Shown: positions 4,317 to 9,160 of the stretch, one piece after another
Position numbering within the stretch: the first letter of the stretch is position 1
Layout: each line of letters starts with the position of its first letter
NCBI GenBank assembly: GCA_003164075.1
Contig: PLRZ01000438.1
Coordinates: forward strand, 1-10,653
Reading direction: 5' to 3'
DNA: 10,653 nt
Origin: Bryobacterales bacterium
GTDB lineage: Bacteria; Acidobacteriota; Terriglobia; Bryobacterales; Bryobacteraceae
Position numbers and translations under genes: made by a program
Notes under the pieces: generated by a model
What the model was told of the DNA's origin: nothing
Databases searched by the model: none
Seen by the model: the letters and a program-made list of their open reading frames with translations, nothing else

Positions 4317-4498
4317 GTTCAGAACTCCTGATGTCGTGGAATTTGCAGTGAGCCCGCAGGTGGGGCAGGCGGTGCTCGCCTGCCCGCCCGCGCTGAATTA
4401 GGCCCGCTGCTCGAATAGGATCGTGGGCAGGCGAGCACCGCCTGCCCCACCTGCGAACCTCTCGCCATCGAAAGGAATGGCGCAGCCCATTTTCCCCG
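4317..4498. repeat. Palindromic dispersed element, copy 2, with perfect 30-bp stem
   Basis: The arms 4356-4385 and 4425-4454 are perfect 30-nt reverse complements around a 39-nt interval. Each arm is itself a small palindrome (gggcaggcg, 5-nt loop, cgcctgccc), giving a nested, cruciform-prone structure. The outer flanks 4317-4355 and 4455-4498 match the flanks of copy 1 as reverse complement. The loop core (4390-4423, containing gctgaattaggcccgctg) matches copy 1 in the direct orientation. The right edge (ctcgccatcgaaaggaatgg and on) merges into the 5' end of a small ORF. Confidence 0.92.
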
Positions 4499-4521
4499 TC
4501 TACGGGCCGGGTCTGCAAACC

Positions 4522-4692
4522 ATGGATGCCGCGCTGGTGCGTTCGGTCGAGCTCGCCGAACACCTCCGCATGGAACTTCGTGCCGACTGGGATACACTGA
4601 ACCGCTTCGTCAATACCCCACAATTCGGCACCATCACGGAAGCTTCCACGCCTGGCCGCGAGTTCCAATTGAGCGCAAGGCTCTCTTTTTGA
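4522..4692 (+). CDS. Candidate small protein or peptide (56 aa) heading the asparagine-synthetase-like operon
   Basis: No family is recognised. The 56-residue product is a probable amphipathic helix (MDAALVRSVELAEHLRMELR) followed by a Thr/Ser/Gly-rich tail ending in SARLSF. By my count about two thirds of its codons end in G or C, as in neighbouring genes, and its stop lies 30 nt before the next start codon. Those facts favour a real, co-transcribed gene. An alternative ATG at 4477 gives 71 aa and lies inside the repeat, with AAAGGA almost touching it. No good Shine-Dalgarno precedes 4522. It could be a peptide substrate of the downstream enzymes, a degraded gene end, or chance. There is no Cys, and no lasso-type core (no Gly with Asp/Glu 7-9 residues later near a cleavage site). 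Confidence 0.4.
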   Translation: MDAALVRSVELAEHLRMELRADWDTLNRFVNTPQFGTITEASTPGREFQLSARLSF

Positions 4693-4722
4693 TGACGGGT
4701 ATTGTAGACTCGAAAAAGCGAA

Positions 4723-6042
4723 ATGCACAGCTATATTGAACGTGTCGTCGATCTTCTGGATCCGGGGGGGAATCGGCTTTACAACTTGACGGCCGAGGCC
4801 GCGCGGGAACTGCTCCTCAAACACCCCGTGAAGGCCGCGCAACAAATGCAGGGCTCCTTTGCGCTGATTGCGCGCCAGGGCCAGACCGTTACCATGGCGC
4901 GCTCGCTCGACCGGCCCATGCGCTACTTCCTGGCGAAGCAGCAGGCCGGGCCGATCCTGATTGTCGCCGACCGCATCGATACCATTTACAACTGGCTCCA
5001 ATCGGAAGGTCTGGAGTCTCAGTTTCATCCCAGCTACACCCGCATGGTGCCGGCGCATTACGTCGTGGAACTGCAGCTCGTGGGCTGTCCCGATCCCGAT
5101 CCGAAGTATACGCGGTTCTTCGACCCGCGGCCCGGTATGTTACCAGCCGACCTGGACCAGATCGGCCAAACATATGTTAGTGCTCTGGCGGAGGAGATCT
5201 CCCGCTTCCTGCAATCCATGCCGGATCGCGAACCGCTGGGAGTATGTTTCTCCGGTGGCCTAGATAGCGGTAGCGTCTTTCTCACCACTTACCACGTAAT
5301 GCGCAAGCTCGGCATGAATCCGGCGCGCTTGAAAGCGTTTGTTCTCGACCTCGGCGGCGGGCCGGACCTCCAGCAGGCGCGCTTGTTTCTGGAATCGCTG
5401 GATCTGGGGCTATTTCTGGAGCCTGTTCAGGCCGATTCCCGGACGCTCGACGTTCAGGAGACGATACGCCTGGTGGAAGACTATAAGCCGCTCGATATTG
5501 AATCGGCCACCATGGCGGTGGCGCTCTGCCGCGGGATTCGCGCCCGCTATCCCGGCTGGCGCTACCTGATCGACGGGGATGGCGGCGACGAGAACCTGAA
5601 GGATTACCCCATCGAAGAGAACCCCGAACTGACCATTCGCAGCGTGATCGATAATCCCATGCTGTATCAGGAAGGCTGGGGCGTCGGAAAGATCAAGCAT
5701 TCGCTGACTTATACCGGCGGTCTCAGCCGTTCTTACACGCGCACTTATGCGCCGGGCCGGCATTTCGGTTTTCATGGGTTTAGTCCCTTCCTGCAGCCGT
5801 CCGTGATCGCCGTGGCGGAGGCCATCCCTTTTATCGAGCTGACTAACTACAATGTCCCGCGGCTCTATGAACTCAAGGGCGAGATCGTATCCCGCGGCAT
5901 TCGGGCGGTAACCGGACTGCGCATGCCGGTGTTTCCGAAGCGGCGCTTTCAACATGGCGCCTTGCCAGCCGCCGTTCTGCGCGAGCGCCTGCCGTTCCGC
6001 CAGGCCGAATACCGCCGGCACTTTCTTTCCCTCTATTCGTAA
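4723..6042 (+). CDS. Asparagine-synthetase / beta-lactam-synthetase-like ATP-dependent amide ligase, no N-terminal Cys
   Basis: The 439-residue product has the two-domain AsnB layout. Residues about 1-130 resemble the class II glutaminase domain (QGSFALIARQG at 43-53, a degenerate ARSLDRPMRYF at 59-69). It begins Met-His, not Met-Cys, so the Ntn nucleophile that releases ammonia from glutamine is absent. Residues about 170-400 are the synthetase domain, with the PP-loop SGGLDS (177-182), which binds ATP pyrophosphate, an acidic DGDGGDEN (284-291) and Lys385 in ELKGEIVSRG, which may match the conserved late Lys of this family. Loss of the Cys is typical of relatives that activate a carboxylate with AMP and join it to an amine already present: beta-lactam synthetase, CarA, lasso cyclase. 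I infer amide or ring formation in a biosynthetic pathway. Only 2 nt separate it from the radical SAM gene. Confidence 0.85.
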   Translation: MHSYIERVVDLLDPGGNRLYNLTAEAARELLLKHPVKAAQQMQGSFALIARQGQTVTMARSLDRPMRYFLAKQQAGPILIVADRIDTIYNWLQSEGLESQFHPSYTRMVPAHYVVELQLVGCPDPDPKYTRFFDPRPGMLPADLDQIGQTYVSALAEEISRFLQSMPDREPLGVCFSGGLDSGSVFLTTYHVMRKLGMNPARLKAFVLDLGGGPDLQQARLFLESLDLGLFLEPVQADSRTLDVQETIRLVEDYKPLDIESATMAVALCRGIRARYPGWRYLIDGDGGDENLKDYPIEENPELTIRSVIDNPMLYQEGWGVGKIKHSLTYTGGLSRSYTRTYAPGRHFGFHGFSPFLQPSVIAVAEAIPFIELTNYNVPRLYELKGEIVSRGIRAVTGLRMPVFPKRRFQHGALPAAVLRERLPFRQAEYRRHFLSLYS

Positions 6043-6044
6043 GC

Positions 6045-7007
6045 ATGTCTCTCTTACTGCCCGCGAATGCCGCCGGTCTGGACGCCTGGATCGAAGGGCA
6101 GCGGCCGCCCCGCAATCCGGTCGACCCGTTGCGGCCCTACTTATTCTTCGCGGAAAACGAGCGCTCCCGGGAGGGCGAAATCGTCCCGGTCAACACGCTG
6201 TTCCTGACCAACCGCGAGTGCCCATGGCGCTGTCTGATGTGCGATCTGTGGAAGAACACGCTGCCCGAGACAGTGCCTGCCGGCGCAATTCCCGCGCAGA
6301 TCGAGTACGCACTGGCACGCTTGCCCGAATGCCGGCATGTCAAGCTCTACAATAGCGGCAGTTTCTTCGATCCGCACGCGATTCCGGTGGCGGACTATCC
6401 GGCCATCGCGGCCCAACTGGCGCGCTTCGAGCACGTCATCGTCGAGAGCCATCCCGCGCTGATCGGCGAGAATTGCCTGCGCTTCCGGGACTTGCTCGCG
6501 GGACGCCTGGAGGTTGCCATGGGACTCGAAACGGTCCACCCCGCCATTCTTCCCCGCCTCAACAAGCGCATGACCCTCGAACAATTCGCTGAGGAGGCGG
6601 CGCTATTGCGAAGGAACGGGATCGACCTGCGCGTCTTTATCCTGGTGCAACCGCCATTTTTGCCTGCGGGTGAAGCCGTCCACTGGGCCCAGCGCTCGCT
6701 CGACTTCGCTTTCCAATGCGGTGCGGCGGCGGCCATTCTTATTCCAACCCGTGGGGGCAACGGCGCGCTCGAAGCGCTGGCCCGGCACGGTGACTTCGAA
6801 CCGCCCACCATCGCGAGTCTCGAAGCCAGTCTGGAATATGGTCTCGGCCTCCACAAAGGTCGTGTCTTCGCCGACCTCTGGGGGTTGGAGCGATTCTCGA
6901 GATGCACCGTTTGCTACCAGGCGCGGGCGGCGCGATTGCAGCAGGTGAATCTCCGGCAGATGGTCTCCGAGCGCGTCGACTGCCGGGCCTGCGGAGGACG
7001 CCATTGA
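6045..7007 (+). CDS. Radical SAM protein, archaeosine-synthase (RaSEA)-like, with C-terminal CxxC pair
   Basis: The 320-residue product carries the CxxxCxxC cluster motif as Cys59, Cys63 and Cys66 (RECPWRCLMCDLW), the site for the [4Fe-4S] cluster that cleaves SAM to the 5'-deoxyadenosyl radical. Downstream blocks KLYNSGSFFDP (100-110), VIVESHPALI (131-140), VAMGLETVHP (157-166) and LVQPPFLP (200-207) resemble the Elp3-like branch that contains the archaeal tRNA archaeosine-synthase subunit RaSEA (TIGR01210-type). The C-terminus holds CTVC (287-290) and CRAC (313-316), suggesting a zinc site or an auxiliary Fe-S cluster. Its context in a bacterial operon with an amide ligase and a flavoprotein argues for small-molecule or peptide chemistry more than for tRNA archaeosine. 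It starts 2 nt after the previous stop and its own TGA overlaps the next start. The family call rests on motif resemblance only. Confidence 0.85.
   Translation: MSLLLPANAAGLDAWIEGQRPPRNPVDPLRPYLFFAENERSREGEIVPVNTLFLTNRECPWRCLMCDLWKNTLPETVPAGAIPAQIEYALARLPECRHVKLYNSGSFFDPHAIPVADYPAIAAQLARFEHVIVESHPALIGENCLRFRDLLAGRLEVAMGLETVHPAILPRLNKRMTLEQFAEEAALLRRNGIDLRVFILVQPPFLPAGEAVHWAQRSLDFAFQCGAAAAILIPTRGGNGALEALARHGDFEPPTIASLEASLEYGLGLHKGRVFADLWGLERFSRCTVCYQARAARLQQVNLRQMVSERVDCRACGGRH
6993..6998 (+). promoter_or_regulatory. Shine-Dalgarno GGAGGA fixing the TTG start of the flavoprotein gene
   Basis: GGAGGA lies 5 nt before TTG 7004, inside the end of the radical SAM gene. This is the strongest ribosome binding site seen in the window. 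It favours TTG over the in-frame ATG at 6902, which would add 34 residues without family similarity upstream of the FAD motif. Confidence 0.75.
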
Positions 7008-8557
7008 GCGCGGATTACGACATTGCAGTGATTGGCTCGGGATTCGCAGGCTCGCTCGCGGCCATGATCGCGCACCGGTTGGGCAGGTCGGTTCTCCTGC
7101 TCGAACGCGGCAAGCATCCCCGCTTCGCGATCGGCGAATCGTCTACTCCGCTGTCCAACCTGCTGCTGGAAGAGCTATCGGTCCGCTACCATCTTCCCAA
7201 CCTCACCCCGCTGTGCAAATGGGGCACGTGGCAAAAAGCGTATCCCGATGTAACCTGCGGACTGAAACGCGGCTTCACGTTCTATCGTCACAAGTCCGGC
7301 AGCCGCGCCGCGGTGGACCCGCAACGCCGGGACCAACTCCTGGTGGCGGCCAGCCCTCACGATGCCATCGCCGATACCCATTGGTACCGCGCCGAAGTCG
7401 ACTCTCTCTTTGTTCGCGAGGCGCAGAACATAGGCGTCGAGTATCTGGACGAAGTCGACTTACTAAGTGCTCGCGGGCAGGATGAAACGGTGCGGCTGGA
7501 AGGCACGCGCCACGGCAAGCGTCTCAACATCTCGGCTCGATTCGTGGTGGATGCCACGGGACCGCGCGGTTTCCTGCACCGGGCCTTGGCGATTCCCGAG
7601 TTGAATTTGCCGGACTTTCCGCGGACCGAGGGCCTATACACGCATTTCACCAACGTGCGCCGTCTCGACGAACTTACCCCGAATGCCGAGGCGCCGCCGT
7701 ATCCCGTGGACGACGCGGCAGTTCATCATGTGTTCGACGGTGGCTGGATCTGGGTCTTGCGCTTCCGCAACGGAATCACCAGCGCGGGCGTCGCGGCTAC
7801 CCAACCGGTCGCGGCGCGCCTCGGATTCAGCGAAGGCGCGCCAGCCTGGCAGCGGCTCTTGCAATGCCTTCCAACGGTACACGATCAATTCGCATCGGCG
7901 GTGGTCGAGCGGCCCTTCATACACGCTCCGCGGCTCGCGTTCCGAAGCGGCGCCATCACTGGCCCGCGATGGGCCTTGTTGCCGTCGGCGGCGGGGTTTG
8001 TGGATCCTCTTCTGTCCACCGGTTTCCCCCTGGCGCTTCTGGGCGTTACTCGCCTGGCGGCGATCTTCGAACGAGACTGGGATTCGCCCCGATTGGGCCC
8101 GGCGCTGGCCACCTATGCCCTGCACACCGAAGAGGAATTGCTGGCTACCGCGCGCCTGATCGGGAGCCTCTACGCCAACATGGCGAACTTCCCGTTATTC
8201 GTTTCGCTGTCGCTGCTCTATTTCGCCGCCGCCAGCTTTTCCGAGACAGCCCGCAGACTGGGGAGACCGCACCTGGCCAGTTCTTTTCTCCTGCACGATC
8301 ATCCCGATTATCAAATACAGCCGCTCCTGGAGCGCGCCCGCCTGGTTCGCAACCAGGAGGAATCGCAAACGTTGAGCGGCGACATTCTCCGCGCCATCGA
8401 GCCGTTCAATGTAGCTGGGCTGGGCGAGCCGCGTCGCCGCAACTGGTACCCCGCGGATGCCGGGGACATGCTCCGTGGGGCGCCGAAGCTAGGGGCGGAT
8501 CGGGATGAAGTGGCGCACCTGCTCGAACGGTGTGGCTTCCAGCGTGGGGCAGGGTAA
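7004..8557 (+). CDS. FAD-dependent halogenase-like monooxygenase (TTG start)
   Basis: The 517-residue product begins five residues before the FAD-binding strand DIAVIGSGFAGS (GxGxxG at 11-16), then ERGKHPRFAIGESSTP (35-49), the GES block typical of flavin-dependent halogenases and geranylgeranyl-reductase-like enzymes. Lys88 in GLKRGFTFYRH sits where tryptophan halogenases carry their catalytic Lys. WIWVLRF (248-254) replaces the diagnostic WxWxIP: both Trp remain but Ile-Pro is Leu-Arg. The second FAD motif is LLPSAAGFVDPLLSTGF (325-341). Residues about 385-415 form a hydrophobic helical stretch and the C-terminal region is long. It could halogenate, hydroxylate or oxidise a product of the operon; a true halogenase role is uncertain because of the altered motif. 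TTGA overlaps the previous stop by 4 nt, so translation is probably coupled. A different FAD oxidoreductase activity is the main alternative. Confidence 0.85.
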   Translation: MSADYDIAVIGSGFAGSLAAMIAHRLGRSVLLLERGKHPRFAIGESSTPLSNLLLEELSVRYHLPNLTPLCKWGTWQKAYPDVTCGLKRGFTFYRHKSGSRAAVDPQRRDQLLVAASPHDAIADTHWYRAEVDSLFVREAQNIGVEYLDEVDLLSARGQDETVRLEGTRHGKRLNISARFVVDATGPRGFLHRALAIPELNLPDFPRTEGLYTHFTNVRRLDELTPNAEAPPYPVDDAAVHHVFDGGWIWVLRFRNGITSAGVAATQPVAARLGFSEGAPAWQRLLQCLPTVHDQFASAVVERPFIHAPRLAFRSGAITGPRWALLPSAAGFVDPLLSTGFPLALLGVTRLAAIFERDWDSPRLGPALATYALHTEEELLATARLIGSLYANMANFPLFVSLSLLYFAAASFSETARRLGRPHLASSFLLHDHPDYQIQPLLERARLVRNQEESQTLSGDILRAIEPFNVAGLGEPRRRNWYPADAGDMLRGAPKLGADRDEVAHLLERCGFQRGAG

Positions 8558-8632: not shown

Positions 8633-9160
8633 TCAGACGACCAACATACGATGGTCCGGGCAGTCCAGTTCGATGGCCTCGTAGATATGATCCACCAGGT
8701 CCAACCCGTGCTTCGCCAGAAACGGCAGGATGGAATAGAGGCGCTCCTGCAAATGGCGCTCGGGGAAAATCAGGCCGTTGAGCGACGCCGCATCGCCCGC
8801 GGCGCGATCGTTCCGGCGCATGGCTTCGCGCCCGGCTTTGCCTTCGATCTTGGACAGTTGATAGGCTATCTTGCGCTTGCTGCGGTCGAGCGCCTGAGCC
8901 AGGGTGGGGTCGAAGGCCGACAGATCGCCGCGCAGTCGGTCGATGGCGCGCTCCACCGCCTTGCCGGCCTCGCCGAGCGACGCGTTGAGTGCCGGCGGCA
9001 CCAGTTTGGCGGCGATGCGCTCGCGCAGCACGTCTTCCCCATGGTAGAAATCGGGCAGCGACAGACCGTAGCGCTCCATCAGCTTGTCGCTGTGCTGGTC
9101 CAGGATAGGCGCGTGCCGAACCCGAAGCTGAAGGCTTCGATTTTGACATCGAACCAGCAA
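8633..9160 (-). pseudogene. bshC: C-terminal fragment of bacillithiol biosynthesis cysteine-adding enzyme BshC
   Basis: The open frame gives 175 residues; family-like sequence starts about residue 19 (ILDQHSDKLMERYGLSLPDF, near 9106) and runs to the stop. Recognisable BshC features are FDPTLAQALDRSKRKIAYQL (the helical coiled-coil part), the IEGKAGREAMRR block and the family's hallmark IFPERHLQERLYSILPFLAK followed by HG and a terminal DHRMLVV. Full-length BshC has about 540 residues, so roughly the N-terminal 70 percent, including the cysteine-ligase catalytic core, is gone. The first ~18 residues of the frame do not look like BshC and probably come from the fusion point. No upstream frame restores the N-terminus. 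It is judged a dead fragment; a functional bshC would have to be elsewhere if the cell makes bacillithiol. Confidence 0.8.

Follow-up and report, generated by a model that had tools for sequence, protein, structure and literature searches.

A 10,653-nt stretch of DNA from a Bryobacterales bacterium of the Acidobacteriota (contig PLRZ01000438.1 of assembly GCA_003164075.1), hereafter called the window, carries an operon of three genes encoding an asparagine-synthetase-like ligase, a radical S-adenosylmethionine (SAM) protein related to RaSEA, and a flavoprotein resembling FADH2-dependent halogenases (Table 1). It is nearly certain that these genes represent a conserved system, best explained as a dedicated small-molecule pathway, in which the ligase and the radical SAM protein form an obligate pair, kept even when their genes are unlinked, and the flavoenzyme is the usual third member. 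An earlier note, made from the sequence alone, had described three genes so tightly packed that one junction is a 2-nt gap and the other a 4-nt overlap, and the open reading frames (ORFs) and sequence of the window bear this out: 2 nt separate the ligase and radical SAM genes, and the flavoenzyme gene overlaps the latter by 4 nt, its TTG start codon running into the radical SAM stop codon. The motifs listed there are likewise all present, namely SGGLDS (ligase residues 177-182), CxxxCxxC (CPWRCLMC), GxGxxG (GSGFAG), and GES.

The genomic co-occurrence check proposed in that note was run on 297 Acidobacteriota, 194 Verrucomicrobiota, and 199 Planctomycetota genomes, with thresholds of E ≤ 1e-20 for the radical SAM protein and E ≤ 1e-40 for the ligase (Acidobacteriota). 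Each protein was found in 30 of the 297 Acidobacteriota, the identical 30, and the two again share the same genomes in Verrucomicrobiota (3/194) and Planctomycetota (7/199); in sum, 40 of 690 genomes have both, 650 have neither, and none has one alone. The idea of a dedicated system thus withstood the refutation that the earlier note had set for it. Three of the 40 (G001, G306, and G003) are sample centers picked for having the genes and another (G006) had been examined earlier, so that 36 of 686 remain when these four are subtracted. Under independence, identical ligase and radical SAM sets would arise by chance with a probability of about 1e-60, a figure that serves as a guide only because the genomes are related. 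It should be noted that the all-or-none pairing holds for this subfamily at the thresholds used; G011, counted as negative, yet has a more distant RaSEA-like radical SAM protein without such a ligase. The pairwise identities of the three proteins also co-vary, with Spearman coefficients of 0.76, 0.86, and 0.84 over 83, 63, and 82 rows and permutation maxima of at most 0.20. Given that each superfamily is common on its own, ordinary unrelated enzymes could adjoin by chance, but this explanation is refuted by the co-occurrence and the co-variation of identities and is hardly credible.

The ligase of the positive Acidobacteriota falls within a stretch of at most 4 kb around the radical SAM gene in 28 of 30 genomes, while in G251 it resides on a different contig, and in G083 a contig end holds a piece of it, a longer match being found on a second contig. 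For radical SAM loci without the ligase (11 genomes), the ligase was found elsewhere in 10, the sole miss being G304 (16 genomes were submitted to this check, and 15 matched); among these 10, L028 and L042 may reflect assembly breaks, and the ligase of G310 lies about 30 kb off on the same contig. A wider view came from a set of 5.8 billion proteins, in which the three proteins have at least 7996, at least 8000, and at least 7799 relatives, and from scanning genomes with 18 aligned radical SAM proteins, which returned 302 relatives; the best 80 loci were used (81 with the window added). Going by record titles, these 80 comprise 41 Acidobacteriota, 20 Verrucomicrobiota, 8 Planctomycetota, 2 Gemmatimonadota, 2 Armatimonadota, one Rhodothermota, one Bacteroidales metagenome-assembled genome, one Nevskia, and 4 further bacteria. 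By tblastn, the ligase is found in 69, the flavoenzyme in 66, and both, hence all three genes, in 60 of the 80; the misses in L028, L032, and L042 fall at contig ends.

A flavoenzyme homologue is present in 28 of 30 pair-positive versus 0 of 50 pair-negative Acidobacteriota, and, in a second set of 44 genomes, in 10 of 22 pair-positive ones versus 0 of 22 pair-negative Planctomycetota and Verrucomicrobiota. Six of the seven pair-positive Planctomycetota of the sample have it (absent: G003), in four cases at a site remote from the pair. The distance is about 236 kb, 306 kb, and 2.1 Mb in G558, G579, and G691, respectively, and in G597 the ligase, radical SAM, and flavoenzyme genes reside on three separate contigs. 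When 14 pair-positive genomes were chosen for having no adjoining flavoenzyme gene, it was located elsewhere in 4 and gave no match at E ≤ 1e-20 in 10, with several drafts involved; no homologue was found in G416 and G460. Given that pair-positive genomes without the flavoenzyme exist, the pair forms the core, which the flavoenzyme frequently joins. Thus, the three-gene unit of the earlier note holds insofar as ligase and radical SAM protein are always paired and all three genes occur together in most loci, but the flavoenzyme is not universal, and the minimal unit consists of the other two.

The ligase belongs to the asparagine synthetase superfamily, scoring 45.3 bits with Pfam Asn_synthase (PF00733; gathering cut-off 21), and is not an asparagine synthetase itself. 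Glutamine-hydrolysing asparagine synthase (TIGR01536) was rejected on a score of 38.4 bits against a cut-off of 267.1 and on the lack of an N-terminal Cys. For the alignments, 144 of 156 ligase rows passed the filter, giving 107 unique sequences plus the window, as did 156 of 157 radical SAM rows (113 unique plus the window) and 88 of 126 flavoenzyme rows (plus the window), some rows being the same genome reached twice. In a tree of the 108 ligases, that of the window stands beside two Bryobacterales sequences, which makes an acidobacterium of this order the most likely host. None of the 108, with start codons chosen by script for this count, has a Cys within the first four residues; the term "Cys-less" used earlier is therefore right for the N-terminal nucleophile but not for the whole protein, which has other cysteines, such as C122. 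This residue is invariant (108/108) within a Gly-Cys-Pro-Asp-Pro block, GCPDP, that is found in all 108 ligases. Like asparagine synthetase B, beta-lactam synthetase, and carbapenam synthetase, the ligases possess the pyrophosphate (PPi)-loop motif SGGxDS, in the form SGG[ILV]DS in 106/108, and DGxGGDE, as DG[DE]GGDE in 108/108; unlike those enzymes, they lack the N-terminal Cys and carry blocks of their own, GCPDP and KRRFQ, invariant or nearly so across the alignment. In a search of solved structures, the ligase profile matches asparagine synthetase B (1ct9) weakly, at 22 bits. The structure model is poor (mean predicted local distance difference test score, pLDDT, 58.5), so the Foldseek matches, in which asparagine synthetase, beta-lactam synthetase, and carbapenam synthetase (1ct9, 1jgt, and 1q15) rank first, support membership of the superfamily and nothing finer.

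Lasso cyclases are asparagine-synthetase-like as well, which brings up the maturation of a ribosomal peptide, with a lasso-cyclase-like ligase, cross-linking by the radical SAM protein, and a peptide halogenase, a kind of enzyme that is known (PMC12715798). However, among ORFs of 20-90 aa within 800 nt, no conserved short-ORF family precedes the ligase: 1607 short ORFs from 68 loci form 78 families, none of which lies upstream in more than 3 loci. The scattering of the three genes in G597 also speaks against this weak and quite improbable explanation.

The radical SAM protein just exceeds the Pfam Radical_SAM cut-off (29.9 versus 29.5 bits), and all three Cys of CxxxCxxC (C59/C63/C66) are kept in 114 of 114 sequences. 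Two C-terminal Cys pairs, 287/290 and 313/316, are complete in 92 of 114. Its nearest NCBIfam family is RaSEA (TIGR01210), whose substrate is preQ0-Lys in tRNA, at 95.7 bits, and since the cut-off is 212.15, RaSEA proper was ruled out; the MnmL/YtqA model is under its cut-off too, at 14.1 bits. Proteins above the RaSEA cut-off are found in 0 of the 15 genomes searched versus 3 of 14 control genomes. The structure model is good (pLDDT 93.2) and resembles radical SAM barrels, Elp3 being the top Foldseek match. Queuine lyase heads the VIA list, whose rows are tied and place HydE, NifB, biotin synthase, Elp3, and others nearly level with it, and hence no function was read from this list; searching PDB sequences with the radical SAM profile found nothing at E ≤ 0.01. 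Cleavage of C-N bonds is common to RaSEA, MnmL, and queuine lyase. A second RaSEA-like radical SAM protein was observed in the acidobacterial genome G011 (L212:7375-9928), with 107.5 bits to TIGR01210 and the spacing C-x8-C-x2-C, overlapping a gene whose 460-aa product weakly matches ATP-grasp (26.3 bits against a cut-off of 23.2); these two may be another pair of ligase and radical SAM protein, in a single case.

These affinities raise the alternative of nucleic acid hypermodification, in which the ligase adds an amino acid to a modified tRNA base, the radical SAM protein trims it, and the flavoenzyme oxidises the product. The two nearest named NCBIfam families of the radical SAM protein, RaSEA and MnmL/YtqA, both matched below cut-off, act on tRNA; Elp3 and queuine lyase top the Foldseek and the tied VIA lists; and the pair is maintained when unlinked, as housekeeping functions are. 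Yet the Pfam matches of the three proteins include no RNA-binding domain, the nearest solved relatives of the flavoenzyme are the phenol halogenase PltM and tetracycline 7-halogenase, the distribution is patchy (40/690 genomes), and many relatives have FG-GAP proteins, a membrane protein, and importers encoded alongside. On balance, a role in tRNA modification seems somewhat unlikely.

The flavoenzyme resembles flavoproteins of the Trp_halogenase, CmlS, and QhpG types (Pfam and NCBIfam), scoring 43 bits with Pfam Trp_halogenase (cut-off 21), and among solved structures its profile is closest to PltM (216 bits), followed by tetracycline 7-halogenase (206 bits). Two motifs, WxWxIP and FxxPxxSxG, are named for FADH2-dependent halogenases. 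The second is present as FVDPLLSTG in the window and exactly so in 44 of 89 flavoenzymes; the other forms listed are mostly variants, and some depart from it (FLDAWLSPG and VIDPLLSTG). The first is replaced: the window has WIWVLR where PltM has WLWVIP in the alignment, and the commonest forms listed at this site are W(I/V/M)WxL(R/Q/K/H) or WMYQLR. Lys88 is kept in 89/89 flavoenzymes and aligns with Lys87 of PltM, whose K87A variant is inactive (PMC6424973). Compared with PltM and CtcP, the flavoenzyme shares GxGxxG, GES, the catalytic Lys, and FxxPxxSxG, but differs in the altered WxWxIP site and in that no polyketide or phenol pathway adjoins it in the window. With this site altered, a halogenase is the likely reading and a hydroxylase a possible one.

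The pairing of an amino-acid-transferring enzyme with a RaSEA-type radical SAM protein has a parallel in archaeosine synthesis of Euryarchaea. According to one source, ArcS makes the lysine adduct that serves RaSEA as substrate, and the ArcS of Thermococcus kodakarensis transfers lysine and is active only in complex with RaSEA; ammonium, Asn, and Gln are given there as not used by the ArcS of three archaea, this one included, although that of Methanocaldococcus jannaschii is reported to use them (PMC11298593). The present system differs in that its ligase has the asparagine synthetase fold and is not ArcS, it is bacterial, a flavoenzyme is added, and the radical SAM protein is under the RaSEA cut-off. 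Nevertheless, a glutaminase-less ligase whose obligate partner is a RaSEA-like radical SAM protein follows the same logic, and on this ground a scheme of ligation, C-N cleavage or other remodelling, and halogenation or hydroxylation is proposed. The ligase would adenylate a carboxylate through the SGGxDS PPi loop, a motif that strongly implies ATP-dependent amide ligation. Given that it has no N-terminal Cys for taking ammonia from glutamine, it would use an intact amine, an amino acid being the simplest case, to yield an N-substituted amide. The radical SAM protein would work with the ligase as RaSEA does with ArcS, abstracting a hydrogen from the N-linked carbon; it would then either cleave the C-N bond to give an amide or amine or remodel the side chain in some other way. 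The flavoenzyme would act last, halogenating or hydroxylating an aromatic or phenolic part through its conserved lysine, and UnbV and UnbU proteins together with an ABC importer would probably move or use the product in many genomes. The radical SAM protein and overlapping ATP-grasp gene of G011 (ATP-grasp being another ATP-dependent ligase fold) suggest the same pattern in one instance. We infer the amino acid donor, the C-N cleavage, and the order of reactions, and the probability that the whole scheme of amine ligation, radical cleavage or remodelling, and flavin-dependent halogenation or oxidation is correct is put at about 0.35. The join-radical-flavin sequence put forward in the earlier note is plausible, the catalytic Lys being kept in every flavoenzyme, with its substrate, its order, and, given the altered WxWxIP motif, halogenation as putative elements.

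Relatives of the operon often have characteristic neighbors, as called with a self-made codon-usage gene caller rather than a published gene finder. Among the 81 loci, 48 have a cluster of FG-GAP/UnbV_ASPIC-type genes, the UnbV name deriving from the Pfam family "ASPIC and UnbV", and 35, spanning three named phyla, have an NQR2/RnfD-like membrane protein of the UnbU type; the domains of both were checked in L002 only. In L020, L052, L063, L069, and L078, these genes run on the operon strand. A UnbU-like protein of at least 300 bits is found in 9 of 30 pair-positive versus 0 of 50 pair-negative Acidobacteriota, and weak matches (81-99 bits) occur in 3 pair-positive and 1 pair-negative genomes. 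These observations favor a further alternative, the synthesis of a redox or metal cofactor for the nearby UnbU and UnbV FG-GAP proteins, as does the fact that QhpG, whose name stands for a flavoenzyme of cofactor maturation, ranks second among the NCBIfam matches of the flavoprotein; QhpG itself was rejected at 63.6 bits against a cut-off of 240. On the other hand, no UnbU-like gene was found in the window and none at 300 bits in 21 of the 30 pair-positive Acidobacteriota, and hence UnbU is not the only user; this explanation is considered unlikely.

The UnbU-like protein is 26-29% identical to proteins encoded on Streptomyces plasmids (20 of 49 records listed), where the genes are called "enediyne biosynthesis protein" or, next to CRTAC1, RnfD, and one such plasmid region reads, in order, DUF1702, DUF1702, CRTAC1, the UnbU-like gene, a polyketide synthase (PKS), SgcE6, and P450. 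UnbV and UnbU relatives beside the operon in many loci thus recall the enediyne warhead cassette (DUF1702, UnbV, UnbU, and PKS), but the window lacks the UnbU-like gene, and an enediyne cluster was ruled out there by the absence of PKS, DUF1702, and P450 from the 10 window ORFs scanned, the scan for PKS covering the window and not its relatives. A NitT/TauT-type ABC substrate-binding protein is present in 9 of 81 loci and a MerP-like HMA-domain protein in three. The flanks of L005, L010, and L011 each have an ABC importer whose substrate-binding protein contains CQLTC, and a MerP/UxxU-like HMA protein was called in L010 and L011. These flanks resemble the Sec-assisted organometallic (SAO) system named in PMC13188914, which was ruled out for the ABC genes of L005 by scores below the model cut-offs (SaoX 52.9 of 300 bits, SaoP 170.9 of 295 bits). 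Later Planctomycetota and Verrucomicrobiota regions have few neighbors in common; the caller was empty in L183 and overlooked genes of the operon in L182, L189, L190, and L193, so that the absence of neighbors in these regions is weak evidence.

Within the window, the operon is flanked by the genes listed in Table 1. That no transporter accompanies it, as had been said earlier, is true of the window operon (the amino acid permease gene lies on the other strand), but not of the 9 loci with the NitT/TauT-type protein. The upstream ORF at 4423-4692 is probably a gene remnant, since its match to an outer-membrane beta-barrel model (23.8 of 30 bits) is confined to the final 70 positions; it is overlapped by a perfect inverted repeat of 31 nt, with 39 nt between the arms, that may be a small mobile repeat. 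Downstream, BshC is encoded in its C-terminal part only (positions 373-521 of the 529 in the model), which has the look of a truncated bacillithiol gene. A promoter and terminator scan yielded a single weak promoter-like site, at 4710-4737, which does not exceed the yield from shuffled sequence, and searches of the window with Rfam at gathering scores and for tRNAs gave nothing. None of the three proteins was matched by PADLOC, and a plasmid search with the ligase gave no match.

Table 1. Features of the window; strands are relative to the sequence as given.
Feature	Positions	Strand	Details
Asparagine-synthetase-like, predicted ATP-dependent amide ligase	4723..6042	+	439 aa; SGGLDS PPi loop, DGDGGDENLKDYP, KRRFQ motifs
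Ligase N-terminus, glutaminase-type region without Cys nucleophile	within 4723..6042	+	
Radical SAM protein related to RaSEA (TIGR01210)	6045..7007	+	320 aa; CxxxCxxC at 59/63/66
FADH2-dependent halogenase-like flavoprotein	7004..8557	+	517 aa; closest solved relatives PltM, tetracycline 7-halogenase
Amino acid permease gene	247-1839	opposite to the operon	window ORF
Unnamed ORF and lysA	upstream of operon		family scans
ORF, probable remnant of an outer-membrane protein gene, upstream of operon	4423-4692		outer-membrane beta-barrel model
Inverted repeat, possibly a small mobile repeat	4355-4455		5' of operon
Apparent truncated bacillithiol gene	8633-9160		BshC, C-terminal part

Every enzyme superfamily of the set is already known, and its logic resembles that of ArcS and RaSEA. 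As for the combination, the claim that no described pathway has this set stands, none having been found in open-licence PMC papers, and together with the co-occurrence of ligase and radical SAM protein this supports a dedicated pathway. No NCBIfam (June 2026) model above its cut-off is listed for the three proteins (for the flavoenzyme, among the best 25 of 55 matches). A partly matching combination is that of ammosamide C, with a halogenase and a putative asparagine synthetase; unlike the present set, it includes no radical SAM enzyme of this kind, as far as the available part of the source extends (PMC12715798). No open-licence PMC paper was found on UnbU and UnbV together or naming MnmL/YtqA together with RaSEA, and none of the titles on UnbV alone concerns such a set.

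Taken across the three phyla sampled, the pair is co-inherited as tightly as the subunits of one enzyme, and the proposed scheme predicts a glutaminase-free delivery of nitrogen or of an amino acid to a carboxylate. Tentatively, an undescribed cofactor-like molecule may be made in bacteria that record titles assign to at least five phyla by an amino-acid-donating ligase of the asparagine synthetase type and a RaSEA-type C-N-cleaving enzyme acting as an obligate unit, then usually be halogenated or hydroxylated, and be handled by UnbV and UnbU in many lineages. If this is true, the UnbU/UnbV pair of the enediyne clusters would be part of a wider system, and given that both genes reside next door in many relatives, these loci would offer a simpler setting than an enediyne cluster for learning their role.

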